From Sulfurimonas lithotrophica (GTDB taxonomy: Bacteria; Campylobacterota; Campylobacteria; Campylobacterales; Sulfurimonadaceae), in assembly GCF_009258225.1 (NCBI RefSeq), contig NZ_CP043617.1:930001-994000 (forward strand): a stretch of 64,000 bases of DNA, given 5' to 3'. Shown here piece by piece: positions 10,678 to 51,066 of the stretch (its first letter is position 1; each line of letters starts with the position of its first letter). The translations under genes were made by a program, and so were the position numbers. Under the pieces are notes generated by a model. The model did not search any database and was not told the DNA's origin. It worked only from the letters and a program-made list of their open reading frames with translations.

Positions 10678-11595
10678 ATGAATTATTTTTCTTTTGAGTA
10701 CCCTTGGTTTATATTGTTACTGATACCGATTATATATTGCCTATATAGATGTAAGGAATATTCAAAGAGTATTTTTTTTGTTCACTTACACCTTATGAGT
10801 GCAAAAAAAAGTTTAAAAAATATAGAGTGGATAATAAAGATACTGATTTTTATATTTTTGGTCGTAGCTTTAGCTTCCCCTATTTTAATAGATAAAACAA
10901 ACCCTCTTAACCGTCACGGAAAAGATATAGTCTTAGCAATAGATGCAAGCGGTTCTATGAACTCATCCGGTTTTGCCGAGGATGAGGAAGAGTTAAAGGG
11001 AAAAAGCCGCTTTGAAATAACAAAACATATAGCAAAAAGTTTTATAAATACAAGACAAAGCGATAATATAGGTGTAGTAATGTTTGGTGATTTTGCTTTT
11101 ATTGCATCTCCGATAACTTATGAGAAAAATATTATTGTAGATATGCTTGATCTGTTGACTCAGGGTATGGCAGGACAAAATACGGCAATCGGTGAAGCTA
11201 TAGCTATAGGTGTGCGTGCTTTTAAACACTCACGTGCAAAAAGTAAGATAATAATACTCCTTAGTGACGGTGAACACAATAGCGGAACGATAAGCCCAAA
11301 AGAAGCGGTAAAAATAGCAAAAGATAAAGATGTTAAGATATATACGATTGCCATTGGGAAAAAAGGTGAGGCTGATGAATCCCTACTTATGAAAATAGCA
11401 TTAGATAGTGATGCACATTTTTATTATGCATCCAATGCTAAAGAGTTAAAAGCGGTATATGAAAATATTGATAAACTGGAGAGTTCAAAGATAAAAAGCA
11501 GAGAGTATTTGTTAAAAGATTATCTTTATGAGATATTTTTACTCTTAGCTACAGCACTTTTAATCTACTTAATATACAGGGAGATAAAAAGATGA
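10678..11595 (+). CDS. BatA-like von Willebrand A (vWA) membrane protein, cluster I
   Basis: A 305-residue protein with two N-terminal membrane helices (about residues 9-23 and 51-70), a vWA domain and a C-terminal helix near 283-300. The metal-ion (MIDAS) site is intact: D89-A-S91-G-S93, then Thr in GQNTAIGEA and Asp in LLSDGEHN. BatA proteins sit in the inner membrane with the vWA domain exposed and act with MoxR ATPases, BatB/C and BatD in envelope stress or enzyme maturation; the exact function is unresolved. It overlaps the next gene by four bases (ATGA). This cluster has no MoxR or DUF58 gene of its own. Confidence 0.85.
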   Translation: MNYFSFEYPWFILLLIPIIYCLYRCKEYSKSIFFVHLHLMSAKKSLKNIEWIIKILIFIFLVVALASPILIDKTNPLNRHGKDIVLAIDASGSMNSSGFAEDEEELKGKSRFEITKHIAKSFINTRQSDNIGVVMFGDFAFIASPITYEKNIIVDMLDLLTQGMAGQNTAIGEAIAIGVRAFKHSRAKSKIIILLSDGEHNSGTISPKEAVKIAKDKDVKIYTIAIGKKGEADESLLMKIALDSDAHFYYASNAKELKAVYENIDKLESSKIKSREYLLKDYLYEIFLLLATALLIYLIYREIKR

Positions 11596-13016
11596 ACTTT
11601 TTAAATCCTGAATTTTTTTGGTTGTTTTTATTTTTACTTGCCGTGTATGTAAAAAAAGACTATAAAAAGTTCAATCCAAGTACATACGGATATGTTGTTA
11701 CATTTATTTTTATTGTTATTGCACTTAGCAGACCTGTAATAGAACAAGAACCTATAAAAACAAAACAATCTTTAAATGATGTAGTCATAGGTGTTGATTT
11801 GTCCTACTCGATGCAGGGAGAGGATATAAGTCCAAACAGACTCTCTAGTGCAAAAGAGTATCTCTCTAATCTCGTAAAAAATAATACAAAAACAAGATTT
11901 GGAGTACTTGGATTTACAACAAATGCAATAGTGCTTAGTCCACTTACACAAGACAGTGAACTGCTTTTGCATCTGTTTAACTCTTTGGATGAATCACTTA
12001 TCGTAACTAAAGGCTCCAGTGTAATGCCTGCGTTAAAACTAGCGAGAAGATTATCTAAAAGTAAAAAACTTTCAGTTGTTCTTTTAACCGACGGCGGGGA
12101 TGAATTAAACTACAGTGATGAATCCGAGTTTGCAAAAGAAAATAAAATGACTGTAAATATTATGATGCTAGCGACAAATAGCGGTTCGACTCTTAAGCTA
12201 AAAAACGGAGATTTGCTTGAAGATGAAAAAGGTGATATTGTAGTAAGCCGAGCAAATTCTGCCATCAAAACTATAGCAGATGCAACAGGTGGAGTCTATA
12301 GTACAAACTTTAGTGATATAATCTCGGCATTATCATCCCAAAGAGAGGCAAATATTAATACTCAGGTCACTATTGTTCAAAATAAGGAACTTTTTTATTA
12401 TTTTATTGTTTTGGCAATACTAAGCTTTTTAGTAAGTGTTACAAGTCTAAAAAGATTTGTTATAGCTTTTTTAATTTTAATCGGTGTAGATGTGCAAGCA
12501 TTTGACTATAAAAGCTTTTATGAGGCAAATAGATTATATACTGAGGGTAAGTATGAAAAAGCCCTGCAAAAGTATAAACAACTTCGCTCTAGCGATGCTT
12601 TAGATAAGTCTATAGTTTTTTATAACATTGCAAACAGCTACGTAAGGCTAAAAGAGTTTAAAAAAGCTAGGGAGAACTATATGAAATCACTTACACTTCA
12701 TTACTCTTTGGAAGCGGATGAAAATCTTTATTTTATAAAAGACGTAGATGAAGAGAAACAGATGAGTACGGGTCAGCAAAAAAGTGTAAAAAAATCTTCA
12801 GATGCCAAACAAAAAGAATCAAGTGAAAAGCAAAAAGAGGGTGGCGGCTCAAATATGAATGTAAGTGCAGCCTCAAGTTCCGCAAGCGATAACAGCGGAA
12901 AAAAAGTAAAATCAAATCAAAGCTCCGTAGATATGAGTAATGGAAAGGCAAAACTAAGTTCGCGTCAATATGAGTTAATAAATAAAAGGGGTGTAAGTGA
13001 AAAACAACCTTGGTAA
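11592..13016 (+). CDS. BatB/BatC fusion: vWA domain plus TPR protein, cluster I
   Basis: A 474-residue protein with two N-terminal helices, a vWA domain with D69-L-S71-Y-S73, a pair of helices around 267-302, and a TPR-like region (about 305-400; YTEGKYEKALQKYKQL and similar). A Ser/Lys/Gly-rich tail follows. In many bacteria the vWA (BatB) and TPR (BatC) parts are separate proteins; here they are one chain. The last codons (KQPW, stop) lie in a 20-base overlap with the start of the BatD gene. The paralogue at 20910 has the same order and a matching EKPW end. Confidence 0.83.
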   Translation: MNFLNPEFFWLFLFLLAVYVKKDYKKFNPSTYGYVVTFIFIVIALSRPVIEQEPIKTKQSLNDVVIGVDLSYSMQGEDISPNRLSSAKEYLSNLVKNNTKTRFGVLGFTTNAIVLSPLTQDSELLLHLFNSLDESLIVTKGSSVMPALKLARRLSKSKKLSVVLLTDGGDELNYSDESEFAKENKMTVNIMMLATNSGSTLKLKNGDLLEDEKGDIVVSRANSAIKTIADATGGVYSTNFSDIISALSSQREANINTQVTIVQNKELFYYFIVLAILSFLVSVTSLKRFVIAFLILIGVDVQAFDYKSFYEANRLYTEGKYEKALQKYKQLRSSDALDKSIVFYNIANSYVRLKEFKKARENYMKSLTLHYSLEADENLYFIKDVDEEKQMSTGQQKSVKKSSDAKQKESSEKQKEGGGSNMNVSAASSSASDNSGKKVKSNQSSVDMSNGKAKLSSRQYELINKRGVSEKQPW

Positions 13017-14091
13017 GATACTGATAATACTAATAATAATTTTTATAAACCTAGATGCCAAAGAGTACATTTGGAGTGCGTCTATAAATAAAAAACAAGC
13101 ATATGTAAATGAAGCCGTGCATCTACACTATAGCTGTAAGTTTAATTCAAGAGACGAGCTACATGTAATAGAGTTTAATCCTGTAGGTACTTACAAAGAT
13201 TACGATATTTATCTCTTAAGCGAGAGTGAAAATATCATAGACGGCAAACGCGTAAATGATTTTGAATTTGTCGCTTTTTTAAAAAAAGCGGGCTTAATAG
13301 AATTTAATTTTGATGTTTTGATGAAAAAAACAAATCAAGACTCCATAAACAATACTGTACTTGGTCGTGACAATGCCGACTATGAACAATTTAGCAAAAA
13401 ACTTATAAAACAGAAAAAACTGAGCATCGATGTCTTAGCAAACGATATTACGCTTCTTGGTGATTTTGAATTTAAAGTAAAAAAAGATAAAACGAGCATC
13501 GATGCTTATGAACCTTACCATTTTGAACTAATCATAGAGGGTACGGGTAATCTTGATAAACTAGAAGATATAGATTTAAAAATACCCGGTGCAAAAGTAT
13601 TTACATCTAGGGCACAAAAGAATTATGTGTTGACAGAAGATGGTTATAAGGGAAAATGGAGTCAAAAATTCGCCATAGTTTCATCTGAAAACTTTGAATT
13701 TCCAAATATTAGCTATGAGTTTTATGAGAAAAAATCAAATACTTTAAAATCATATGAGATAAAATCTTTTGAAGTAAAGGTAAAAGAGTTATATAAAAAA
13801 GAAGATCTTTTAGATGATGTTAAAGAGGAAAGAAATATTTTTAAAACAGAGTATCTGTACTATATTTTAATTTTTATCAGTGGTTTTTTAGCAGGTAAAA
13901 TAAAAATAAGTAAAAATTCCAAAGACGAAAAAAAAGGTGATTTAACTCATAAAGTACAATCTTGTAAAACTTTGGATGAGTTATTAGTATTGTTAATAAT
14001 TATAGATTCTGTAAAATACAGTGACTTGATAAAAAAGCTTGAATCTAAAGAGTTGTCTTTATTAGAAGCTAAAAAACAACTTAGTAAATAG
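12997..14091 (+). CDS. BatD-like membrane protein, cluster I (short form)
   Basis: A 364-residue protein with an N-terminal signal or anchor helix, beta-rich periplasmic domains, one C-terminal transmembrane helix (about 286-302) and a ~60-residue cytoplasmic tail. The LLGDFEFKVKKDKTSIDAYE and GTGNLDKLEDI segments match GDFTIDAKVDKTSI and GLGNLEDIKTL in the BatD at 22753, so they are paralogues; this copy is about 110 residues shorter at the N-terminal side. The start is GTG 12997, supported by AAAGGGG five bases upstream and by alignment with the paralogue. The gene starts inside the previous one. Confidence 0.8.
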   Translation: MKNNLGKILIILIIIFINLDAKEYIWSASINKKQAYVNEAVHLHYSCKFNSRDELHVIEFNPVGTYKDYDIYLLSESENIIDGKRVNDFEFVAFLKKAGLIEFNFDVLMKKTNQDSINNTVLGRDNADYEQFSKKLIKQKKLSIDVLANDITLLGDFEFKVKKDKTSIDAYEPYHFELIIEGTGNLDKLEDIDLKIPGAKVFTSRAQKNYVLTEDGYKGKWSQKFAIVSSENFEFPNISYEFYEKKSNTLKSYEIKSFEVKVKELYKKEDLLDDVKEERNIFKTEYLYYILIFISGFLAGKIKISKNSKDEKKGDLTHKVQSCKTLDELLVLLIIIDSVKYSDLIKKLESKELSLLEAKKQLSK

Positions 14092-40749: not shown

Positions 40750-42897
40750 ATGTTGGATTTTTTCATAAAACTTTTTAAAACTTTTAACTCTTCACAAACT
40801 CCTTGGCAGATGTCTTTATCAATATCACTCGGAATGGCTATGGGACTTACGCCTTTTATAGGCTGGCAGAGTATAGTTATTGTACTGTTTGTACTTGTAA
40901 TAAACATACATATAGGACTTTTTATAGTCTCAAGTGCTTTTTTTGCAGGTATCGCTTATCTTTTAGATCCGACTTTTGAGTCTTTGGGCTATAATATATT
41001 AACAAATCCAAATCTGCAAGACTTATTTACAACTGCTTACAACTCTTCACTTATGAGGATGACATACTTTAATAATACTCTTGTAACGGGTTCGTCTGTT
41101 GTAGCTTTTGCTTTACTGATTCCAATGTATTTCGTATTAAATTCTTTGGTATATATTTATAGAGATAAAATAGCAGGCGTACTTCAAAAATATACTATTT
41201 TTAAATTTTTAGGTATTGAAGTAAGCGGTAAAAAAGATAGGTTTTTAAGAATCTGGGGATTTGGTGTTTTCGCAATTTTAGGGACTTTAATCGGTGTTTT
41301 TATTTTAGTGTTTTTAGACCCATTGGCTAAAATTGCACTTGAAAAGTCTATAAGTAAAGCTACGGATAAAAACGTACAGATAGATAATGTAAACTTGTCT
41401 CTAAAAGAGGGTGCTTTAAAGATTGATAATTTAAATATATTTGAAAACGGTGTTAGCTCTTTTAGGTCTAAAAATATAGGGGTGGATATAGATTTTAATC
41501 AGCTTTTGTTTAATCGTTATCATGTAAATAATCTATCGGTTAAAGGTATGGAATTTAAACAAAGCACGGATGCAAAGGTTCAACAAAAAGAGATAAAAAA
41601 ACAAAAAGAATCTTCTTCGCCTAGTTTAGACTTTGGTTCTATAGATTTGCCTAAACCCGAAACGCTAATAGCAAATATGGGACTTAGTTCAACTACTAAC
41701 TATGAAAATGCAGAAAAAGAATTTAATTCTATAGAAAAAAAGTATAAAGATATTGTAGATAAATATTTTTCCAAAGATGAACTAAAAAGCATCAAGGCTG
41801 ATGTTGAAAAAATAAAATCAAATTTGAAAAAAATTCAAAAAATTAAAAAATTAAAACCGGAACATTATGATTTAATTTCAAATGCTTTAGAAGATATTGA
41901 AAAGTTAAGAAAAACTATAAAACAAAAAAGAAAAGTTTTAAAAACTCTCAAAAATGACTTTGAAAAAGATAAAAATATACTTAGAAAGTTTTCCGATGAG
42001 CTTATTAACGGTGCAAAAAATGATTATGAAAATCTGTCTAAAAATTATAGGTTTGATGAACAAGGCGGTATAAATGTAGTCGGAGCTTTGTTTGGAAATA
42101 ATATAAAGGGATATTTAAAAACTTTTTTAGATTATTATGAAGTGGCAAAACCCTATCTTTCAAGCAAAGAGGAACCGCCTGCACCTCCAAGAGGAGAGGG
42201 TAGGTGGATAAAATACAAAGAACTTAACTCTTTAGCTGATATTTATGTAAAAAATATAGATATAGACGGTATATACGAGACACATAAATTTTTGGCAAAT
42301 ATTAAAAATATAAGCTCAAACCAAAAGCTTATAAACAAGCCTGTAAGCTTAAACATAAAGAGTGACGGAAAACTTTCCAAAAATATAGACTTTAAAATAG
42401 TGAAATTGCAAAAAGCTGACTATAATTTAAATTTAAATGCCAAAACACTTGATTATATAACGATAGATGCAGATGCAAAAATAAACTATGCAAAAACTCA
42501 GTTTTCAAGTAAAAATTTAAAAAACCTAAAAGAATTTTATATAGATATTATACTTAGCAAAGAGATATATTCTCCAAATATTAAAGTTAAGTCGGATTTG
42601 GATAAGAAGTTAAAAGATATATTTCAAAAAGCTATAGAAGAACAAGTGTTAAAATATAAAAACAGACTTAAAGAGTTAATAGATTCCAAAATGCAGGAAA
42701 AACTGAAAAAACTTGGTTTAAAGAATTCGGAAATAGTAAAATTAGGGGCACTTTTAAATGGTTCACTTGACGACTTTTCAAATACGGAACAATTACTGAA
42801 TTCATATGAAAAAGAACTTAAGTCACAAGCTAAAAACAGGCTAAAGGAGAAAGCTACGGAAAAAGTAGGTGATTTACTAAAATCATTTAAATTTTGA
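40750..42897 (+). CDS. large membrane protein: apparent TIGR03546-TIGR03545 fusion
   Basis: A 715-residue protein. Residues 1-150 contain several helices and the opening WQMSLSISLGMAMGLTPFIGWQ, as in the small membrane family TIGR03546. A further helix at about 172-195 leads to a long periplasmic part with an AsmA-like beginning (VQIDNVNLSLKEGALKIDNLNIF), a coiled coil (about 320-410, Lys/Glu-rich), and a C-terminal Lys-rich coiled segment. The second part fits TIGR03545. These two families are normally encoded as a gene pair; here they appear joined. Function is unknown; an envelope lipid-transfer role is only a guess from the AsmA-like part. Confidence 0.7.
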   Translation: MLDFFIKLFKTFNSSQTPWQMSLSISLGMAMGLTPFIGWQSIVIVLFVLVINIHIGLFIVSSAFFAGIAYLLDPTFESLGYNILTNPNLQDLFTTAYNSSLMRMTYFNNTLVTGSSVVAFALLIPMYFVLNSLVYIYRDKIAGVLQKYTIFKFLGIEVSGKKDRFLRIWGFGVFAILGTLIGVFILVFLDPLAKIALEKSISKATDKNVQIDNVNLSLKEGALKIDNLNIFENGVSSFRSKNIGVDIDFNQLLFNRYHVNNLSVKGMEFKQSTDAKVQQKEIKKQKESSSPSLDFGSIDLPKPETLIANMGLSSTTNYENAEKEFNSIEKKYKDIVDKYFSKDELKSIKADVEKIKSNLKKIQKIKKLKPEHYDLISNALEDIEKLRKTIKQKRKVLKTLKNDFEKDKNILRKFSDELINGAKNDYENLSKNYRFDEQGGINVVGALFGNNIKGYLKTFLDYYEVAKPYLSSKEEPPAPPRGEGRWIKYKELNSLADIYVKNIDIDGIYETHKFLANIKNISSNQKLINKPVSLNIKSDGKLSKNIDFKIVKLQKADYNLNLNAKTLDYITIDADAKINYAKTQFSSKNLKNLKEFYIDIILSKEIYSPNIKVKSDLDKKLKDIFQKAIEEQVLKYKNRLKELIDSKMQEKLKKLGLKNSEIVKLGALLNGSLDDFSNTEQLLNSYEKELKSQAKNRLKEKATEKVGDLLKSFKF

Positions 42898-42987
42898 TTT
42901 TGTATCATTTACTTGATAGAGGTCATAGGAAAATGATTTACATAGTATTATAATTTGTATAAATTATTTTTATAAAAAGGTTTTGTA

Positions 42988-43365
42988 ATGAAAAAGATTA
43001 TAGGTATGGTTATTTTATTTTTATTGCTTGCATCTCAGGCACAAGCAATAAGTGAAGGTGAAAATTTAGCAAACGAAAAATGCGGATCTTGTCACTTAAT
43101 GGGTCAAATAACAAAAGAAAAATTAAATAGAATGGCTGCACCGCCTTACTGGATTCTTGGTAAAAAAGTTAAAGCCGTTAGTAAAAATGAAGAAGAAGCC
43201 GTAAATTTTATAGTAGATTACGTATATAATCCATCTGAGGATAAGATGTTGTTTCCAAAAGAAACAAAGGAAAGATTTGGTTTAATGCCTTCTTTAAAGG
43301 GTATTGTTACCGAAGATGAATTAAGAAGCATTGCCAAATATATTTTAGATAACGCTTCAAAATAA
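42988..43365 (+). CDS. monoheme c-type cytochrome, periplasmic
   Basis: A 125-residue exported cytochrome: Sec signal at about 1-20 (cleaved after AQA), haem site CGSCH at about 33-37 and the likely Met ligand in RFGLMPSLKG. The APPYWILGKKV segment and the ending match the cytochrome at 1794, so they are paralogues. The expected role is soluble electron transfer to a terminal oxidase or reductase. AAAAGG precedes ATG 42988. A short AT-only hairpin with a T-run overlaps its stop. Confidence 0.85.
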   Translation: MKKIIGMVILFLLLASQAQAISEGENLANEKCGSCHLMGQITKEKLNRMAAPPYWILGKKVKAVSKNEEEAVNFIVDYVYNPSEDKMLFPKETKERFGLMPSLKGIVTEDELRSIAKYILDNASK

Positions 43366-43382
43366 TATATTATTTTTTTTGA

Positions 43383-43388
43383 TATAAT
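43383..43388 (+). promoter_or_regulatory. -10 box of nadA
   Basis: A perfect TATAAT lies 29 bases before the TTG start of nadA at 43418, after a T-rich stretch typical of Campylobacterota promoters. No -35 hexamer is evident. Confidence 0.5.
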
Positions 43389-43417
43389 TACGAAAAATAA
43401 GTTTTAGGAATAATTTT

Positions 43418-44416
43418 TTGAGTTTATCAAATAAAGAATTAATAGAAAAAATAAATGAATATAAGAAGAAGTTGAGCGTAACTATCGTAGCTCACTTCTA
43501 CCAAAGAGACGAAGTATTTGAGATGGGTGACATTACAGGTGATTCACTTGAACTTGCAATGCGTACAAAAGCCGATGATGCTGAGTTTGTAGTTTTTTGC
43601 GGTGTAGGTTTTATGGGGCAAAGCGTAAAAGTTTTAAGCCCAAACAAACGTGTAGTTATGCCAAAAGTTGCTTGTTGTGCAATGGCCAGTATGATTGATG
43701 CACTTCAGTACGATAATACGGTAAAAGCATTAAACGATGCCGGAATACCAAATGAAAATATACTCCCTATAACTTACATAAATTCAGATGCAGGTGTTAA
43801 AGCAAAAGTCGGTGAAATGGGTGGTATGGTTTGTACAAGTTCAAATGCCAAAAAAATTATTACTACTGCTTTAGAAGAGGGTAAAAAAATCCTTTTCGTA
43901 CCTGATAGATGCCTTGGTCAAAATATTGCAAATCAGATGGGACTTAAATCTTGCGTAGTAGGTGACGGAACCGATTTAAATGAAGCGGATATCATCTGTT
44001 TTGACGGTTTTTGTTCAGTTCATCAGCTTTTTACGGTTGAAGATATAGAGTTTTACAGAGAAAAATACCCTGGAATTTTAATAGCCGTGCATCCGGAATG
44101 TGACCCTGCTATTTGTGACAAAGCAGATTTTGTAGGTTCAACTTCTCAACTGATTAAATATATTACAGAACTAGACCCTGAACAAAAAGTAGCGGTAGGA
44201 ACAGAGTTTAATATGGTAAACCGCTTGCGTCCTAAAAATACTTATGTTTTAAGTTCTACCAAGCCAGAATGTCCTACTATGAATGAAACTACACTAAAAG
44301 ACTTGTATGATGTACTTAAAGCAATTGACGAGGGTGAGCCTTTAAATGAGATTCATGTAGATGAATCAACTCAAAAATGGGCTAAAATAGCACTTGAAAG
44401 AATGTTAGAACTATGA
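43418..44416 (+). CDS. nadA: quinolinate synthase A
   Basis: A 332-residue [4Fe-4S] enzyme that condenses iminoaspartate with dihydroxyacetone phosphate to quinolinate, in NAD synthesis. The cluster cysteines are expected in PKVACCAMA, HPECDPAI and KPECPTMNETT; VGFMGQSVKVLSP and the GGMVCTSSNAKKI loop are also typical. The start is TTG 43418 with AGGA nine bases upstream; no better ATG is in frame. It overlaps nadC by four bases, so the two consecutive NAD-synthesis steps are coupled. Confidence 0.95.
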   Translation: MSLSNKELIEKINEYKKKLSVTIVAHFYQRDEVFEMGDITGDSLELAMRTKADDAEFVVFCGVGFMGQSVKVLSPNKRVVMPKVACCAMASMIDALQYDNTVKALNDAGIPNENILPITYINSDAGVKAKVGEMGGMVCTSSNAKKIITTALEEGKKILFVPDRCLGQNIANQMGLKSCVVGDGTDLNEADIICFDGFCSVHQLFTVEDIEFYREKYPGILIAVHPECDPAICDKADFVGSTSQLIKYITELDPEQKVAVGTEFNMVNRLRPKNTYVLSSTKPECPTMNETTLKDLYDVLKAIDEGEPLNEIHVDESTQKWAKIALERMLEL

Positions 44417-45234
44417 TGAACCTTGAAGAGTTTGTAAAATCTACATTAGCCGAAGATATCGGTCGCGGTGATCTTTACGCACTTGTTGAAGAAGCCGTAG
44501 AAGCGGAAGCTTATGTTATTGCAAAGTGCGACGGCATTATGGCAGGGCAAACATATGTGAATACTTTGGCTTTTATAGAAGAACTGGAAATAGAATGGTT
44601 AAAAAATGATTCGGAATCGTTTGTAGATGGTGATATTTTACTTAGAGTTCGTGCAGACAGTCATAGAGTTTTAAGAACGGAACGTACCCTTTTAAATATG
44701 CTTTTACATGCAAGTTCTATTGCAACTCTTACAAAAAAATATGCCTCTATAGTTGAACCTTACGGTGTTAAATTATTAGATACAAGAAAAACAAGACCAC
44801 AGCTTAGAGTATTTGAAAAGTATGCTACGAGATGCGGTGGTGCGGTAAATCACAGACTTGGGTTAGATGATTCGCTTATGATTAAAGATACTCACCTAAA
44901 GACTATAAAAAACTTAAAAAATTATATTCAAAAAGCTAGAAGGCAGATACCTTTTACAACAAAAATAGAAGTAGAAGCTGAGACTTTTGATATAGCAAAA
45001 GAAGCATTTGAATCGGGTGCAGACGTAGTTATGTGTGATAATATGACACCTGAGCAAATAAGGGAAATAGTAGCTTACAGAGATGCAAACTATGCACATA
45101 TTACACTTGAGGCGAGCGGAAATATCTCACTTAAAACGATAGAATCTTATGCAAAAACCGGTGTAGATGCAATTAGCAGCGGTGCTCTGACTCATCAGGC
45201 AAATTGGATAGATATATCAATGAAAGTACAGTAA
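44413..45234 (+). CDS. nadC: nicotinate-nucleotide pyrophosphorylase (quinolinate phosphoribosyltransferase)
   Basis: A 273-residue type II phosphoribosyltransferase that converts quinolinate and PRPP to nicotinate mononucleotide. Conserved segments are LAEDIGRGDL, the DTRKTRPQLRVFEKYA core with substrate-binding Lys/Arg, KDTHLK, IEVEAETFDIA and DVVMCDNMTPEQI, and the final LEASGNISL. It begins at an ATGATG overlapping the nadA stop. It is followed by a 103-base gap with the promoter and palindrome of the TorD operon. Confidence 0.95.
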   Translation: MMNLEEFVKSTLAEDIGRGDLYALVEEAVEAEAYVIAKCDGIMAGQTYVNTLAFIEELEIEWLKNDSESFVDGDILLRVRADSHRVLRTERTLLNMLLHASSIATLTKKYASIVEPYGVKLLDTRKTRPQLRVFEKYATRCGGAVNHRLGLDDSLMIKDTHLKTIKNLKNYIQKARRQIPFTTKIEVEAETFDIAKEAFESGADVVMCDNMTPEQIREIVAYRDANYAHITLEASGNISLKTIESYAKTGVDAISSGALTHQANWIDISMKVQ

Positions 45235-45280
45235 AGGTAAACTATTTTTCTTAACTAACAATAGTTTCAGTAAAATTTGA

Positions 45281-45286
45281 TAAAAT
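45281..45286 (+). promoter_or_regulatory. -10 box of the TorD cassette
   Basis: TAAAAT lies 51 bases before the TorD ATG and ten bases before the perfect palindrome at 45296-45312. An identical TAAAAT at 45271-45276 is an alternative. Confidence 0.4.
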
Positions 45287-45295
45287 TATCACACT

Positions 45296-45312
45296 TAAGT
45301 AGGTCCTACTTA
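45296..45312. promoter_or_regulatory. 17-base perfect palindrome upstream of the TorD cassette
   Basis: TAAGTAGGTCCTACTTA has perfect eight-base arms around a central T, with G+C-rich inner arms (AGG/CCT) that stand out from the AT-rich surroundings. It lies where the transcript should start, 25 bases before ATG 45338, and has no T-run after it, so an operator is more likely than a terminator. Confidence 0.55.
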
Positions 45313-45337
45313 CTTGAAACCAATATAAAGATTTTTT

Positions 45338-45955
45338 ATGCAACAAACACAAGCAAGAGTAAATATTTATGCACTTTTATCCAGAGTTTTACTTCAAGAA
45401 CTTGATTTAAAACTTTTAAAAACTATTAAAAATGATGAGAATATTTTAGAGTTTTTTCCAACTTTTAAAGATTGGAAGGCACTTAAAGAATTAAGCGATG
45501 AAAAGTTAATAGAAGAAGTTATAAATCCTGATTTTGTAAACCTATCGGTTCTTCATTTAATTCCTTATGAAACATTTTATACAAGAGATGACCAGATGGT
45601 TGAAACCGGTGGTGCAAACCCCGTTACGGATATGTACAGTGCTTATGATTTTATGGTTGATTTTGAAAAAGCTCGTACGGTCTCGGCTGATCATATAGGT
45701 GTGGAGTTAGAATTTATGCATCACTTGGCAACTGCAGAATTAAAAGCACAAGAAGCTGATGATAAAAAAGCTGCAGATGAGCTAAAAGAAGTACAACATG
45801 AGTTTTTAAACAAACACTTATTAAGGTGGGCTCCGATGTATTTAATAAACTTAAAATATGAAGCTCGTACACCGCTTTACTATGATGCAGCTGATTTGGC
45901 TTTAGAATTTATTCTAAGTGATAACGAGTACTTAACAGAAGAGTTAAAAAAATAA
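45338..45955 (+). CDS. TorD/DmsD-family molybdoenzyme chaperone
   Basis: A 205-residue all-helical cytoplasmic protein. YETFYTRDDQMVETGG, DHIGVELEFMHHLA and FLNKHLLRWAPMY are the family landmarks (other members have DHIATELEFL and FLREHLLPW). TorD proteins bind the Tat signal and help cofactor loading of a molybdenum or tungsten reductase or formate dehydrogenase. No such catalytic gene is adjacent in this window. It is first in a four-gene unit with small gaps and lies just behind a strong palindrome. Confidence 0.88.
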   Translation: MQQTQARVNIYALLSRVLLQELDLKLLKTIKNDENILEFFPTFKDWKALKELSDEKLIEEVINPDFVNLSVLHLIPYETFYTRDDQMVETGGANPVTDMYSAYDFMVDFEKARTVSADHIGVELEFMHHLATAELKAQEADDKKAADELKEVQHEFLNKHLLRWAPMYLINLKYEARTPLYYDAADLALEFILSDNEYLTEELKK

Positions 45956-45959
45956 GTTT

Positions 45960-47066
45960 ATGATTAATCTAAATGCAGGTGCATGTGTACGCTCATTAAG
46001 CGTAGAATCCAAGTGTGATAATTGTGAAGTTATATGTCCCACACAGGCAATAGCTTTTGTTGAATCAAACCCTATTCCGGCAATAAACCACTCTTTATGT
46101 GTGGGCTGTGGAGCCTGTGATGCCGTGTGTCCTAATGAAGCATTGCAACTTGATGATTTTAAATCGCATGAGTTTTTCTTTGATTTTTTAGAGGATAAAG
46201 AAAATTTAATTTCGTGTAGAAAAAATGTACCGTGTATAGCTGCACTAAATGTTGAAAATCTTATATCAGTAGCTGTAATAAAAAAAGATATAGTTTTTGA
46301 TATGGGGCATTGTGATGAATGTGAAATAGCACATACCTGTAAGCCAAAAATAATTGAAAATGCAGAAGAAGCTTCTTATTTACTTGAGGCTATGGAAAAT
46401 AAAGCTACGATAAGTCTAAAAAAAGTAAAGTATGAACCTGCAGAGGTTGAAGATCAAACAAGCAGACGTGATTTTTTTCGTTTGGCTAATTTAAAAACAG
46501 TCGGTAAGGTTCAAAAAAACTTTGAAAACGAGATAAAAAAAGCAACGGATGAACTTACTGAGCACACACTCGGTAAAACTGATATCGCACTGCTTAGAAA
46601 AAAAACAATACCGACAAAACGAAAGCTTTTTTACACAGCGATAAAAAGGGTAGAAAAACCGAGTCAGTATCATGTAGTAGATGCAACAGAGGTCTCTTTT
46701 ACATCTTCAAAACTTCTTGATTCAGATAAATGTACGGCTTGTCAAATGTGTTATCGCATCTGTCCGACAGGTGCACTTACAAGCGATATAAAGAATTCAA
46801 AAATAGATTTTGACCCGTTTGTATGCATCAAATGTAATACTTGTCACGATGTTTGTGAGCCTGAAGCGCTGACTCTTAGTCCATCTTATAACGTAAAAGA
46901 ATTTTTTGAACCTAGTGTAGTAAATCTTATAAATTTTAACGTAAAAAGATGTAATGAATGTAATATGATTTTTAGCACAAACGATACAGATGCAAAACTA
47001 TGTTACAGATGTAAAGTAGAAGAGGAAGAGGCAAGAGAGCTTTGGGGGATAAATGAGGAGTATTAA
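45960..47066 (+). CDS. multi-cluster 4Fe-4S ferredoxin protein of the TorD cassette
   Basis: A 368-residue protein with two cluster motifs near the N-terminus (CDNCEVICP and CVGCGACDAVCP), isolated CRKNVPC and CDECEIAHTC pairs, two more clusters at about 255-305 (CTACQMCYRICP and CIKCNTCHDVCE) and a final CNEC...CYRC pair that may bind zinc. Between the halves is SRRDFFRLA (about residue 164), which looks like a Tat signal motif but is internal. It probably relays electrons or helps assemble clusters of a molybdoenzyme. It lies four bases after the TorD stop. Confidence 0.82.
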   Translation: MINLNAGACVRSLSVESKCDNCEVICPTQAIAFVESNPIPAINHSLCVGCGACDAVCPNEALQLDDFKSHEFFFDFLEDKENLISCRKNVPCIAALNVENLISVAVIKKDIVFDMGHCDECEIAHTCKPKIIENAEEASYLLEAMENKATISLKKVKYEPAEVEDQTSRRDFFRLANLKTVGKVQKNFENEIKKATDELTEHTLGKTDIALLRKKTIPTKRKLFYTAIKRVEKPSQYHVVDATEVSFTSSKLLDSDKCTACQMCYRICPTGALTSDIKNSKIDFDPFVCIKCNTCHDVCEPEALTLSPSYNVKEFFEPSVVNLINFNVKRCNECNMIFSTNDTDAKLCYRCKVEEEEARELWGINEEY

Positions 47067-47068
47067 AG

Positions 47069-47824
47069 ATGATGAACAATGATAACCAAATATCTAAAGA
47101 GACCAAACTTTTTGGATATATCGGTGAACATGCTGGTGTCAGCCGTTTTTCGGCTATAAGTAACAAACTATACAAAGCTGATGGATTTGATGCTATGATG
47201 ATACCAATGAATATACGTGAGGATGATTTGTACTTTACGGTGGCAAATATGAAAAAGTCACACGTAAACGGAGCCGTAATATCAAGTGAATATGTTAGCG
47301 ATGTTTTAGAGATAGTTGATGATGCAACAAGTTTAGCTAAGCGAAGCGGAATGTGTGATATCATATTCCGTGAGGGTGAGAGTCTAAGCGGCGATGTGTT
47401 TTCTATCAGGGTTTTAACGGAGCTTTTAAAAGATATGCATATACGACGTGTAGCACTAATAGGTATAAATCATTATGCAAAAGCATTCTCATTTTTAGCA
47501 TGCGGATTTGAAGTAAGTTACTTTAATGAAAATTTAGAAGAACTGATGGCTTTTACAAAAGATGTAGATTTAGCACAAGCAGATATAAACCGTATAGCTG
47601 ATGGTATGAATATTGATTTCTCGGCATATGATGCGGTTTTGGATTTTTCGGATTTGGAGGATTTTTCCATGATTGAAAAATTGGCTGAGTTTAACTTTGA
47701 TATGAAAAATACAAAGCAGTTCTCGGCATTAAAACAAAGATGCAACGAACTAGGTAAAAAATATATCTCATATGATGATATGTTGGATAATTTAGCACAA
47801 GCAGTTTATAAAAGAATAAAATAG
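47069..47824 (+). CDS. shikimate-dehydrogenase-fold protein, probably catalytically inactive
   Basis: A 251-residue protein whose N-terminal half follows the AroE substrate domain: LFGYIGEHAGVSRFSA in place of the usual GxPVxHSxSP, then FDAMMIPMNIREDDL and HVNGAVISS. The catalytic Lys of the NVTIPHK motif is missing, the Asp of NTDG may remain as D109, and the nucleotide loop GAGGAA is replaced by GINHYA. The fold is therefore inferred from pattern and enzyme activity is unlikely. Its place directly after the ferredoxin gene suggests an accessory role in the same pathway. Confidence 0.55.
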   Translation: MMNNDNQISKETKLFGYIGEHAGVSRFSAISNKLYKADGFDAMMIPMNIREDDLYFTVANMKKSHVNGAVISSEYVSDVLEIVDDATSLAKRSGMCDIIFREGESLSGDVFSIRVLTELLKDMHIRRVALIGINHYAKAFSFLACGFEVSYFNENLEELMAFTKDVDLAQADINRIADGMNIDFSAYDAVLDFSDLEDFSMIEKLAEFNFDMKNTKQFSALKQRCNELGKKYISYDDMLDNLAQAVYKRIK

Positions 47825-47841
47825 ATAAAGGAATATACAAA

Positions 47842-48354
47842 ATGAACCACCATGATATAGATGATTTAAAAGCAGAGTTTGATAAGTTTGTAAAAGATAA
47901 GTGTTCACTAAATTCGGAAGAAAACATATATGAAAATCAAAATCCGGACGCAGGCGATAAAGAGGATGAGGAACCGGTTCCTCAGTTTGTAGATGCACTT
48001 ACGTCAAAACTTTTAGCACCTGCAATAAGCGGTGTGTATCTTTCACGTTTAGATATAAAAAGGATAGCTGAGGCTATAGATGAATCTATACCAATAAAAG
48101 AGCGTACAAAGATGGTAAAGGCATTATTCCGCCATACAACAAAAAGAAAGTATCTCGAAGATGCATTTACAGAAGTTAACAAGCATATAAACGGTCGTAT
48201 TTTAATGTATAAAGAACTCAGTGAATCGTTTCCTGCTTCAAAAGAGATATTTGACGATTATATCCAAAAAGCAAATAAAACAATGAAAATGTTTGAACAG
48301 ATAATTAATGATTATGAAGAGATAGAACCTACAGACGACCCAATGTTTGTATAA
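47842..48354 (+). CDS. unknown acidic protein, last gene of the TorD cassette
   Basis: A 170-residue soluble protein without signal peptide or cysteine-rich motif apart from one Cys near the N-terminus. The first 50 residues are acidic and probably disordered (NPDAGDKEDEEPVPQ); the rest is predicted helical (SGVYLSRLDIKRIAEAIDES, MFEQIINDYEEIE). I do not recognise the family. AAAGGA precedes ATG 47842, 17 bases after the AroE-like stop, so it belongs to the cassette. It is convergent with the hybrid kinase gene. Confidence 0.7.
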   Translation: MNHHDIDDLKAEFDKFVKDKCSLNSEENIYENQNPDAGDKEDEEPVPQFVDALTSKLLAPAISGVYLSRLDIKRIAEAIDESIPIKERTKMVKALFRHTTKRKYLEDAFTEVNKHINGRILMYKELSESFPASKEIFDDYIQKANKTMKMFEQIINDYEEIEPTDDPMFV

Positions 48355-48375
48355 ATAGTTATCATCTTCGTTTAA

Positions 48376-50514
48376 TTAAGAGTTTATGGATATATATTTA
48401 TCTATTGATTCTTTTAATATATCTAGGTTTTCTTTATATCTTTTTGCATATTCAGGAAGTATCTCATACTTTTTGAATATAATTTTTTGTAGTATTTCAC
48501 TTGATAGCTCTTGCATATCATCAGCTCCAACGGCACCTGCTAAGCCTCTCATGTCAAGACATAACATTCTAGCTTGCTCAAATCTGTGTTCTTCAATCAA
48601 GTTATCAAATACTTTGTCACTCTCTCCGTATGCATCTATAAACTCTTTTAAAACCTCTATATAAAAAATAGGATTATCGTTAGTCTGCCTAAGACCGCTT
48701 TGTATATTTAAACCATCAAGTTTATCTAATATTTCAGCATCTATGTTTTTAGGTAAAGATTCTGTTATATTTTCATTTTTTTTATTTATAAAAGTATCAA
48801 AAGCACTGTATAATCTTTCTTTTTCCAAAGGTTTGGCTAAATAACCGTTCATACCTACATGAAAAACTTTATTTATTTCATCTGTCGCAGTCAAAGCACT
48901 TAATGCTACTATCGGCACCATATTAAGAGAAGGGTTTTTTCTAATTCTTAGTGTAGCTTCATATCCGTCCATAATCGGCATATTAATATCCATTAGTACC
49001 ATATCGAATTTATTGTCGTTGTATAGGATGTCAACGGCTTCTTTACCGTCATTTGCAATAGTTACGTGCATATTTGATTTTTTCAAAATACTTGTTAAAA
49101 CTTTTTGGTTTATATGGTTGTCTTCAACAATAAGTAATTTTGAATCACTAAAATGGGAAAAACTCTCTAAAGATATATTTTTTGCATATATAAAACGTTC
49201 TTTTTGAACTTTAAGTATATTGTTTTGTAAATTATTTTCACTCGTTAAAGCATCTTTTTTTGTATCTAAAAGTGTATAATAGATACTCTCTTTTGTAAGT
49301 GGCTTGTAAAGTTTTGATGCAGTTAACTTTAATTTGTTTGTTTTTGAAAAAATATTCCCTAGTATTATTACTTTTGGTTTATGGTTTTTATCTATTTTTG
49401 AAATACTTTCAATAACTTTAGAGTTAGCTAGTTTTTCATCAAGTATAATTGTAGTATATTTTGAAAAATCCGGAAGTTGTTCTAAAAATTCATCTTTATT
49501 TTGTGTATTTACATCACACCTTAGCGTTTGTAAGATTCTTTTTATGGCAAGAGTAGTTTCTATAGATGAATCAAGAAGATATATTTTTTCATCTTGTATT
49601 TTTTTGGTATCTAGTTTATGTTTTTTTAGTGTAGCGGAATCGACTTCGTTAAATGGAAGGTTTAAAACAAACTCGACATTAGAATCTTTATAATTATTTC
49701 TTGCAATTATGCCCCCGCCAAGCAGTTTTGAGAGTTCATTTGATACAAATAAAGACATTCCGTCGTATTTTTTTGTATTTTCATTATAGGTTGTTTGGAA
49801 GATATCGGCGCTGACTTTAACTTTTGTATCGGCATAGAGTACAAAATGAAGTGTAGTCGGTGCATTGAATTTACTTCTTTTTGAAACTTGAATTACTATT
49901 TGTTTAGATGAGTTTATGATACAAAACTCTATTAAAGTTACTAAAATTTTTGAGATACCCAAAGTATCGGAATTCAACATATCCGGAATATTATCATCAA
50001 CATCAAAAATAAGTTCTAAATCACTCTCTTTATTATTCGATTTAACTTGACCTAAAATATCGTTAAGAAGATTTTCGAGTTTAAATATTTTATTTTTTGG
50101 ATGAATCTTTTGTGCTTTTATTTGCAAAAATTCTATTAAATCGCTTGTAGCATCTATAATCGTATTTTCGGAATTAATAACTTTGCTTATATGATCTTGC
50201 ACAGATTCGTTTTTTGTTTTTAATTTTGTCGTATCTCCAAGTGTTTCTTTTGTGATGTTTTGGATGTTTTTACTCATCTCGACAAGTAGTTCACTCTGTC
50301 TTTTTTCTATCTCTTGTTGTTGTTCTCTCATTTTTTTGTGTTCAGACTTTAAGCGTGCTAATTGTTGTGAAGACAAATACAAGGCTGCTATACCTATAAA
50401 AGCAAGTCCAAAAAGAGCTATCCACATTGTTTGTTGTTCTGCTATATCAACTTCGATTGAGTCTGCAAAAAGTGAGATATTTAGAAAAAGCAGTAGTGAA
50501 AAAATATTTTTCAT
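48376..50514 (-). CDS. hybrid kinase-like protein lacking both phospho-accepting histidines
   Basis: A 712-residue membrane protein with a signal or first helix (1-17), a second helix (about 30-48), a coiled coil, a HisKA-like region, a weak HATPase, a degenerate receiver (about 310-415), a good receiver (about 465-580) and an HPt-like end. In the H-box the usual MSHEIR reads MSKNIQ (K82). The second receiver keeps its Asp (VLMDINMPIMDG) and CheY-like Lys. In the HPt motif the usual AHxLKG reads CLDMRG (L653, codon CTT). It may be a scaffold or phosphate acceptor for another kinase. AAGGA precedes ATG 50514. Confidence 0.82.
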   Translation of the reverse strand: MKNIFSLLLFLNISLFADSIEVDIAEQQTMWIALFGLAFIGIAALYLSSQQLARLKSEHKKMREQQQEIEKRQSELLVEMSKNIQNITKETLGDTTKLKTKNESVQDHISKVINSENTIIDATSDLIEFLQIKAQKIHPKNKIFKLENLLNDILGQVKSNNKESDLELIFDVDDNIPDMLNSDTLGISKILVTLIEFCIINSSKQIVIQVSKRSKFNAPTTLHFVLYADTKVKVSADIFQTTYNENTKKYDGMSLFVSNELSKLLGGGIIARNNYKDSNVEFVLNLPFNEVDSATLKKHKLDTKKIQDEKIYLLDSSIETTLAIKRILQTLRCDVNTQNKDEFLEQLPDFSKYTTIILDEKLANSKVIESISKIDKNHKPKVIILGNIFSKTNKLKLTASKLYKPLTKESIYYTLLDTKKDALTSENNLQNNILKVQKERFIYAKNISLESFSHFSDSKLLIVEDNHINQKVLTSILKKSNMHVTIANDGKEAVDILYNDNKFDMVLMDINMPIMDGYEATLRIRKNPSLNMVPIVALSALTATDEINKVFHVGMNGYLAKPLEKERLYSAFDTFINKKNENITESLPKNIDAEILDKLDGLNIQSGLRQTNDNPIFYIEVLKEFIDAYGESDKVFDNLIEEHRFEQARMLCLDMRGLAGAVGADDMQELSSEILQKIIFKKYEILPEYAKRYKENLDILKESIDKYISINS

Positions 50515-50568: not shown

Positions 50569-51066
50569 TTATATAATTTTTAAGATTCCTTGCCAAATAA
50601 CTGCACTTAAAATCCCGGCTGCAAAACCTGCAACTATGTCATCTGCCATAACGCCGACTCCGCCTTTTGCTTCACGATCTAATCTACCGATAATAGATGG
50701 TTTTGTTATGTCGAAATATCTAAATAATATGAAAGATAAAACAGATTGAATTAAAAAACCGTTTTCAAAAGTTGAAAGTTCATTTAAGTCGATGCTTATA
50801 GCCGGTGCTACACTCAGTGCAAACCACATACCTGCTAGCTCATCAATAACAATTCTTTTATCATCGTGAATACCAGATTTTTCTTCATATCTATTTATCT
50901 CTTTTATGGCGATTGCAGTTATTAAAACAGTAGCCATAAAAAGTGTTTCTGCACTAAAATATATTAGTATTAGCATTCCAAGCGGCAGAGAAATCAATGT
51001 ACCTATGGTTCCCGGAGCTTTTGGTGCAAGACCAGAGTAAAAAAGTGTTATAAAAAACCAGTTCAT
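50569..51066 (-). CDS. pgpA: phosphatidylglycerophosphatase A
   Basis: A 165-residue membrane enzyme that dephosphorylates phosphatidylglycerol phosphate. The family landmarks are GLAPKAPGTIGTLISLPLG near the N-terminus, the acidic KRIVIDELAGMW segment and GVMADDIVAGFAAG near the end. Several helices are visible. It follows the Sat-like gene by 11 bases, the same neighbour relation as in Campylobacter jejuni (Cj1609-Cj1610), so it is probably the last gene of the ispDF-led operon. Confidence 0.92.
   Translation of the reverse strand: MNWFFITLFYSGLAPKAPGTIGTLISLPLGMLILIYFSAETLFMATVLITAIAIKEINRYEEKSGIHDDKRIVIDELAGMWFALSVAPAISIDLNELSTFENGFLIQSVLSFILFRYFDITKPSIIGRLDREAKGGVGVMADDIVAGFAAGILSAVIWQGILKII

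Follow-up and report, generated by a model that had tools for sequence, protein, structure and literature searches.

A TorD cassette of Sulfurimonas lithotrophica as the probable maturation half of a split psr operon

Here we consider a four-gene cassette in a 64,000-nucleotide stretch of the 2.4 Mb genome of Sulfurimonas lithotrophica (the window, G000:C1:930001-994000; G codes denote genomes and L codes loci), encoding a TorD-family chaperone, a multi-cluster ferredoxin (FDX), a protein with a degenerate shikimate-dehydrogenase fold (AROE') and a small helical protein (ACID). Most probably, a psr operon that once comprised seven genes, psrB-psrC-psrA-torD-FDX-AROE'-ACID, was split in the window's Sulfurimonas lineage, and the cassette is its maturation half. 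The genomic partnership of the cassette and psrA, the gene of a molybdoenzyme, is firm; the biochemical roles of the four proteins we infer. The genes lie at C1:975338-978351 of the genome and, in window positions, are as follows.

45338..45955, plus strand: torD, 205 amino acids (aa), PF02613 chaperone of the TorD/DmsD/NarJ family
45960..47066, plus strand: FDX, 368 aa, multi-cluster ferredoxin
47069..47824, plus strand: AROE', 251 aa, shikimate-dehydrogenase fold without the catalytic residues
47842..48354, plus strand: ACID, 170 aa, small helical protein of no known family

The gaps between them are 4, 2 and 17 bases and the gene after ACID is on the minus strand, and the four genes are thus as real, as tightly packed and as abruptly ended by a strand switch as an earlier reading of the letters (the original prediction) had claimed.

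The distant enzyme and the operon break

The cassette had been described as lacking its enzyme, which is true locally but not genome-wide: a PsrA-like protein of 1130 aa is encoded at G000:C1:1776542-1779931, on the same contig and 0.80 Mb from the cassette, with PsrB- and PsrC-like neighbours, and the suggestion that the genes serve a distant reductase finds its partner there. A PF00384 search of the window genome gave seven matches, which in context are two Nas/FdhA-like proteins, NapA, FdhA-like proteins of 689 and 577 aa, the PsrA-like protein and NuoG. Among eight molybdopterin-type open reading frames (ORFs) checked, a twin-arginine (Tat) motif was found only in the PsrA-like protein and in NapA, which has its own NapD- and NapF-like neighbours (read by eye). 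We assign the cassette to PsrA because of gene order, co-occurrence, the single TorD of the genome and the Tat motif that, NapA aside, only PsrA carries among these ORFs. The enzyme has the molybdopterin domains, and its Cys232 aligns with Cys173 of Thermus 2vpw, a position which we take to be that of the molybdenum ligand. It scores 126.1 bits against the PhsA equivalog (cut-off 694) and stays below every NCBIfam cut-off listed, so the name polysulfide reductase (PSR) applies at the level of the family, from which its substrate would be polysulfide or sulfur. PSR homologues are present in all genome-sequenced Sulfurimonas species, according to an excerpt of a review (PMC4584964). An RRxFLK motif occurs within the first 60 residues in 40 of 42 PsrA proteins of this type, in contrast to Sulfurovum indicum, where none of four PsrA proteins has a typical twin-arginine motif as far as an excerpt of that study states (PMC10045233).

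The order HisD-PsrB-PsrC-PsrA-TorD-FDX-AROE'-ACID is intact in five loci (L098, L103, L105, L173 and L174), in all of which PgpA follows on the other strand after zero to five genes beyond ACID (the names HisD, AroK, Trx and PgpA were assigned by eye, and the related loci found are mostly from Sulfurimonas). The window has two genes on this side.

48376-50514, minus strand: hybrid histidine kinase gene, between ACID and the pgpA-like gene
50569..51066, minus strand: pgpA-like gene (name assigned by eye), bordering the cassette and the intact operons downstream

In all eight split genomes fetched (L157-L164), psrBCA has no adjoining cassette and other genes follow psrA. HisD lies upstream of psrB in six of them, with one ORF between in two, and in L163 and L164 the contig starts at psrB. 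HisD also stands upstream of psrBCA in the window genome, with two small ORFs between, and of 46 window-type loci, 37 keep the PgpA side and nine are on contigs that end before PgpA. Since the HisD side stays with psrBCA and the PgpA side with the cassette, the break point falls between psrA and torD.

In a sample of 248 genomes of the order, with at most two psrA candidates scored per genome, psrA was found in 91 and this class of TorD in 92 (both in 88, psrA only in three, torD only in four, neither in 153; Fisher p 5e-58, kinship ignored). The two genes are at most 4 kb apart in 67 of the 88 genomes holding both, and psrA is present in all 46 genomes with window-type cassettes (L047-L092). 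Partners found among the 91 psrA genomes are FDX in 89, AROE' in 64 and ACID in 81. The cassette is conserved as a unit in relatives: of 92 genomes having both FDX and TorD, 88 have them no more than 2.5 kb apart, and the same is true of ACID and AROE' in 56 of 62. The separate occurrence of the cassette genes, which the original prediction had named as an argument against itself, is confined to exceptions: family f23, single genomes of f5 and of f6, and the hybrid G076 described below. Its other such argument, an absence of AROE' and ACID wherever TorD works, does not hold either, as they accompany PsrA plus TorD in 64/88 and 80/88 genomes, respectively, although not in all.

Paralogues were set aside as follows. 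Six of 74 genomes with AROE' rows (G033, G075, G088, G109, G113, G228) were dropped as housekeeping AroE, with frames of 257-277 aa and 20-29% identity, and AROE' rows were kept down to E 7e-4. Genomes with second-class paralogues only were dropped for ACID (19/104), TorD (23/115) and FDX (17/111). A gap separates the TorD classes (E 1.3e-35 vs 2.4e-29); eight weak FDX rows overlapping the paralogue class were kept (G006, G035, G039, G050, G053, G092, G095, G152), seven of them for their position beside TorD or PsrA, and weak ACID rows were kept likewise (G017, G035, G050, G215). For G194, a psrA fragment near the cassette was taken. The alignments used below consist of listed representatives plus the window (ACID 36/37, AROE' 40/51, FDX 23/33, TorD 22/22).

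Natural recombinants and the four proteins

By identity to the PsrA of the window genome, the enzymes are of type-b (at least 74%) or type-a (about 54-66%, depending on the method), a division that resembles the one in an excerpt of a review, where non-vent Sulfurimonas PsrA form one group near Sulfuricurvum and vent PsrA lie elsewhere (PMC4584964). Only two of the 46 window-type genomes, G250 and G253, have a type-a psrA, and their cassettes (L049, L052) are without TorD and ACID between the flanking genes; a third hybrid, G076, comes from the 248-genome sample. In all three, type-a PsrA, TorD and ACID are found together with no FDX or AROE' there (L165, L166 and L148, of which L166 begins inside psrA), and FDX-AROE' stay beside PgpA (L049, L052, L147). 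Each hybrid has one TorD and one FDX match, and G076, the sole hybrid where their copy number was seen, has one AROE' and one ACID. In trees, hybrid TorD and ACID are nearest to type-a and hybrid FDX and AROE' nearest to the split type-b Sulfurimonas, with the PsrA of two of the three hybrids placed, both as type-a. TorD and ACID thus track the enzyme type and FDX and AROE' stay resident, which suggests that the former must match the enzyme and that the latter need not. The simplest reading of these sequences is that TorD and ACID would be enzyme-specific and FDX and AROE' shared between enzyme types.

TorD family members keep hold of the apoenzyme or its leader until the cofactors have been inserted. 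The TorD of the cassette is the sole PF02613 match in the window genome (E 1.8e-17, 64.1 bits, above the gathering cut-off of 22.2) and is tied by co-occurrence and gene order to a complex iron-sulfur molybdoenzyme (CISM). A link of TorD to bisC-hybA-nrfD (NrfD-type) operons is already known (excerpt of PMC4464133). As in the redox enzyme maturation proteins (TorD/DmsD/NarJ), a PF02613 member stands beside a CISM-type molybdoenzyme with an NrfD-type anchor; unlike them, this TorD is accompanied by FDX, AROE' and ACID, and in the window clade it is apart from its enzyme.

FDX matches Fer4 families and has 25 Cys. Its parts are a pair of dicluster regions, additional Cys, CxxC..CxxC at the C terminus and an internal twin-arginine SRRDFF at residues 168-173. 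R169-R170 are invariant in 24/24 aligned sequences, and all 89 copies have RRx[FLMI] within residues 131-230, where the motif precedes the C-terminal clusters. Its score against the NCBIfam napF equivalog, 37.3 bits, does not reach the cut-off of 102.2, so we say that FDX would work like NapF and not that it is NapF. It resembles NapF in being a multi-[4Fe-4S] protein with no N-terminal export signal (by eye) that is tied to a Tat-exported molybdoenzyme, and in having its RR motif before the clusters, as in the window genome's own NapF-like protein; it differs in that its length is about double and that it carries a further dicluster region at the N terminus, additional Cys and, at the C terminus, a CxxC pair. 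According to an excerpt of one review, NapF is cytoplasmic, has four tetra-cysteine motifs and is needed for cluster reconstitution of Rhodobacter NapA, although E. coli and Wolinella are only marginally affected when it is lost (PMC10609526). A paralogous TorD2-FDX2 pair is present in all six loci fetched for it from other Campylobacterota (L167-L172), behind a second Tat-motif molybdoenzyme of the dimethyl sulfoxide reductase type II, whose beta subunit in L171 (L171:2162-12032) scores above the NCBIfam cut-off and whose alpha and gamma subunits score below. ACID2 is labelled in three of the six (L168, L170, L171), adjoining in L171 a gene for an Mrp/ApbC-like Fe-S carrier (match below cut-off), and the twin-arginine of FDX2 was seen in four. 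The presence of TorD2-FDX2 beside a Tat-motif enzyme, with ACID2 in three loci and an Mrp/ApbC-like gene in one, lends support to a part in maturation that involves Fe-S clusters.

AROE' matches the substrate domain of shikimate dehydrogenase, PF08501, just above the cut-off (E 3e-6, 27.8 bits, cut-off 27). Its AlphaFold model (predicted local distance difference test, pLDDT, 95) matches AroE chains with a Foldseek E of 3e-16 and superposes on 4omu_B with Z 23.2 and a root-mean-square deviation (rmsd) of 3.0 over 235 aligned residues. We take the catalytic residues of shikimate dehydrogenase to be the Lys of PHK and the Asp of NTD, and read their columns in 41 copies (window included) by alignment to the window genome's own AroE. 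The Lys column has no Lys in any of the 41 (Val in the window copy), the Asp column has Asp in one (Ser in the window copy), and the PH preceding the Lys is replaced by E (39/41) and Y or F (40/41). AROE' thus appears from its sequence to be an AroE fold stripped of the catalytic residues of shikimate dehydrogenase. It shares the fold of AroE and differs from it in lacking the catalytic Lys and Asp, in being often a single domain (28 of 90 copies are shorter than 160 aa, roughly the N-terminal domain alone) and in coexisting with a separate aroE, of housekeeping type and with a stronger domain match, at C1:1407292. The second, Rossmann-like domain is kept in the window clade. The glycine-rich loop of AROE' is not conserved. 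AROE' is the least conserved member of the cassette, and its short N-terminal-domain form can escape BLAST; in L135 an unlabelled ORF of 121 aa occupies its place. In two genomes of family f23 (L140:6132-7880, L142:8396-10098), an AROE'-like gene comes straight after a gene read by eye as DnaJ-like, a long way from torD, FDX and ACID.

ACID has no match reaching the cut-off in family searches, and Pfam RhoGEF matches in 12 of 37 members (best 4.2e-5) were taken as chance. Its description as an acidic protein is accurate as to a low isoelectric point (4.82) but not distinctive, since TorD (4.69) and AROE' (4.82) are as acidic. The model is helical (pLDDT 85.6); the best Foldseek match has E 0.72, with none of 172 matches at E <= 0.001, and the best VIA match has Z 6.8 (83 aligned, rmsd 3.3), in a range that the tool calls common for helical proteins; fold relatives may exist all the same. 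F13, P60, G64, D71, R88, M91 and K143 are invariant in 37 sequences, and in the ten split Sulfurimonas rows aligned the protein is 70-82% identical to that of the window. In L173 (G169) an incomplete further copy of ACID, containing stop codons, lies about 3 kb away from the intact gene. In the hybrid locus L049, AROE' is followed by a 64-aa ORF, which was rejected as an ACID remnant, having no BLASTP match at E <= 10 among 84 ACID proteins.

Sequence upstream of torD

Two elements precede torD in the window.

45297..45311, no strand: palindrome AAGTAGGTCCTACTT, 15 bases, not conserved and not counted as part of the cassette
45265..45286, plus strand: promoter-like element TTTCAG-N10-TAAAAT, also seen at other loci in the clade

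The palindrome, behind which the original prediction placed the four genes, is real, but it is found in only one of 85 torD upstream regions, which rules it out as a conserved operator, and it is probably recent in the window lineage because L047, the closest relative, does not have it in an upstream region that is similar in other respects. The pattern TTTCAG-N4-16-TAMAAT lies upstream of torD in 22 of 46 split-class loci and 5 of 11 intact type-b loci (background 23 of 8500 stretches), and in none of 20 type-a, three hybrid and five other-family loci. A promoter may have stood upstream of torD before the operon broke. A standard sigma-70 promoter is disfavoured there, as a consensus scan of 45100-48500 lists no site upstream of torD and a single one, at 48176 inside ACID (shuffles mean 14.9); the scan gave no plus-strand terminator-like site in the same interval. 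The torD leader RNA folds with z -1.15 (24/200 shuffles at least as stable), and an Rfam scan of 42500-48700 gave no match at the gathering score. In intact operons the gap between psrA and torD holds a hairpin with a mean best energy of -15.1 kcal/mol (23 type-a and hybrid loci) or -15.4 (11 type-b), and the hairpin upstream of torD is weaker, at -8.1, in the 46 split loci (the window, 42 of L047-L092, L149, L095 and L099, the last two by default). All 23 type-a and hybrid loci examined have a near-invariant stem-loop of the TTAAAGCCCACTTCAAGTGGTGCTTTAA type in the psrA-torD gap (type-a loci L102-L126, e.g., L112). At the other end, homologues of the window genes 10678, 11592 and 12997 (window 10678-14091) are found close to the ACID end in many psr operons of type-a and some of type-b, for example in L104, L107-L109, L145 and L148.

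Proposed roles, alternatives and meaning

We propose that all four proteins would act in the cytoplasm on apo-PsrA before its Tat export. TorD would bind the PsrA leader or apoenzyme and protect it during cofactor insertion, and ACID, probably TorD's partner, would also assist in an enzyme-specific way. FDX would act in the manner of NapF, supplying or reducing the [4Fe-4S] clusters of apo-PsrA, and AROE' may have retained its fold for binding, as a scaffold or as an adaptor for a cofactor or FDX. A more tentative idea, for which we would not claim even odds, is that these are two separable modules, TorD with ACID as a new kind of co-chaperone, and FDX with AROE' as a repurposed shikimate-dehydrogenase fold, a non-catalytic scaffold for delivering a cofactor or clusters, the second module being shared across divergent enzymes. 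The natural recombinants would then be instances of such a module swap.

Among known systems, the closest by genus is psrA1B1CDE of Sulfurimonas NW10, next to the PsrABC of Campylobacterota, and its psrD and psrE may be cassette members; the excerpts available contain no account of a four-gene cassette, a split or an AroE-fold member (PMC10045233). The MOLY cluster MolyABC likewise pairs a TorD-type chaperone with a CISM enzyme that belongs to sulfur metabolism, but it is proposed for Desulfobacterota and Nitrospirota and its excerpt makes no mention of FDX, AROE' or ACID (PMC12998232). The four-gene set is not described in the excerpts of PMC10045233, PMC10092268, PMC9122950, PMC10609526, PMC12998232, PMC6004506, PMC4674564, PMC12029903, PMC4464133, PMC4584964 and PMC2628731, although the NW10 psrA1B1CDE study may describe part of it.

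Several points weigh against the proposed origin and roles. No single known step leads from the intact operon to a distance of 0.80 Mb, given that psrA and torD of another split genome, G220, are 14.3 kb apart on one contig. The association of psrA with TorD takes no account of kinship, the cassette genes are scattered in family f23, and the counts of FDX, AROE' and ACID are biased upward because weak rows were kept. AROE' was not found in 27 and ACID not in 10 of the 91 psrA genomes, so either may be dispensable. For ACID there is no confident fold match, and what ties it to TorD is co-inheritance. The genomes of the hybrids are drafts, and because G076 and G250 are mutual nearest neighbours in the TorD and FDX trees, there were perhaps only two independent hybrid events. 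Finally, FDX could be an electron-transfer partner instead of a maturation factor.

This last point leads to the best surviving alternative, which we nevertheless consider unlikely: FDX and AROE' would be an electron-transfer or regulatory pair, for Psr or for cytoplasmic sulfur or NAD(P)H metabolism, and merely operon-mates of the others. The best matches of FDX are ferredoxin families, the Rossmann-like domain of AROE' persists in the window clade, both proteins are apart from the enzyme in hybrids, and alternative electron routes are ascribed to the ferredoxin-like HydN/YsaA of formate dehydrogenase H in an excerpt of PMC6004506. However, with PsrA carrying a Tat motif, a signal-less FDX would miss the mature enzyme, the TorD2-FDX2 pair accompanies another Tat-motif enzyme, and AROE' is often too short for the second domain and does not keep the glycine-rich loop. 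It is far less probable still that the cassette serves another molybdo- or tungstoenzyme, such as the 689-aa FdhA-like or the Nas-like enzymes. TorD-type chaperones do serve formate dehydrogenases elsewhere (excerpt of PMC4464133) and the window genome has FdhA-like ORFs, but the FdhA- and Nas-like ORFs have no Tat motif, the cassette adjoins psrA in relatives and is always accompanied by it in window-type genomes, and in hybrids TorD and ACID follow the type of psrA. The formate dehydrogenase client that the original prediction had offered as an alternative to a reductase has to be given up on the grounds of synteny, Tat motifs and co-occurrence, the partner being PsrA-like and adjoining the same genes in most relatives; the fetched flanks show no cassette-fdh linkage, and the molybdoenzyme labelled in them is PsrA-like (by BLASTP against the window genome's molybdoenzymes only). 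That the cassette is a relic decaying after separation from its enzyme is hardly credible: AROE' is degenerate as an enzyme and some genomes are without members, but the matches of all four genes in nine split Sulfurimonas genomes sampled have no internal stop, the enzyme is kept, ACID is well conserved among split genomes, and TorD and FDX are single in hybrids.

Questions remain about the way in which exported molybdoenzymes obtain their metal centres, and an excerpt of PMC10609526 asks them for Nap. If the cassette is the maturation half of the psr operon, it adds two candidate factors without a known assembly role, one of them with the fold of an amino-acid-pathway enzyme that has lost the catalytic residues, for a type of enzyme present in 91 of 248 genomes. 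The hybrids allow one to predict the factors that are specific to an enzyme and those that are shared, a prediction open to a direct test by gene removal and swaps. More generally, once an operon has split, a TorD gene that looks orphaned can have its client far off.

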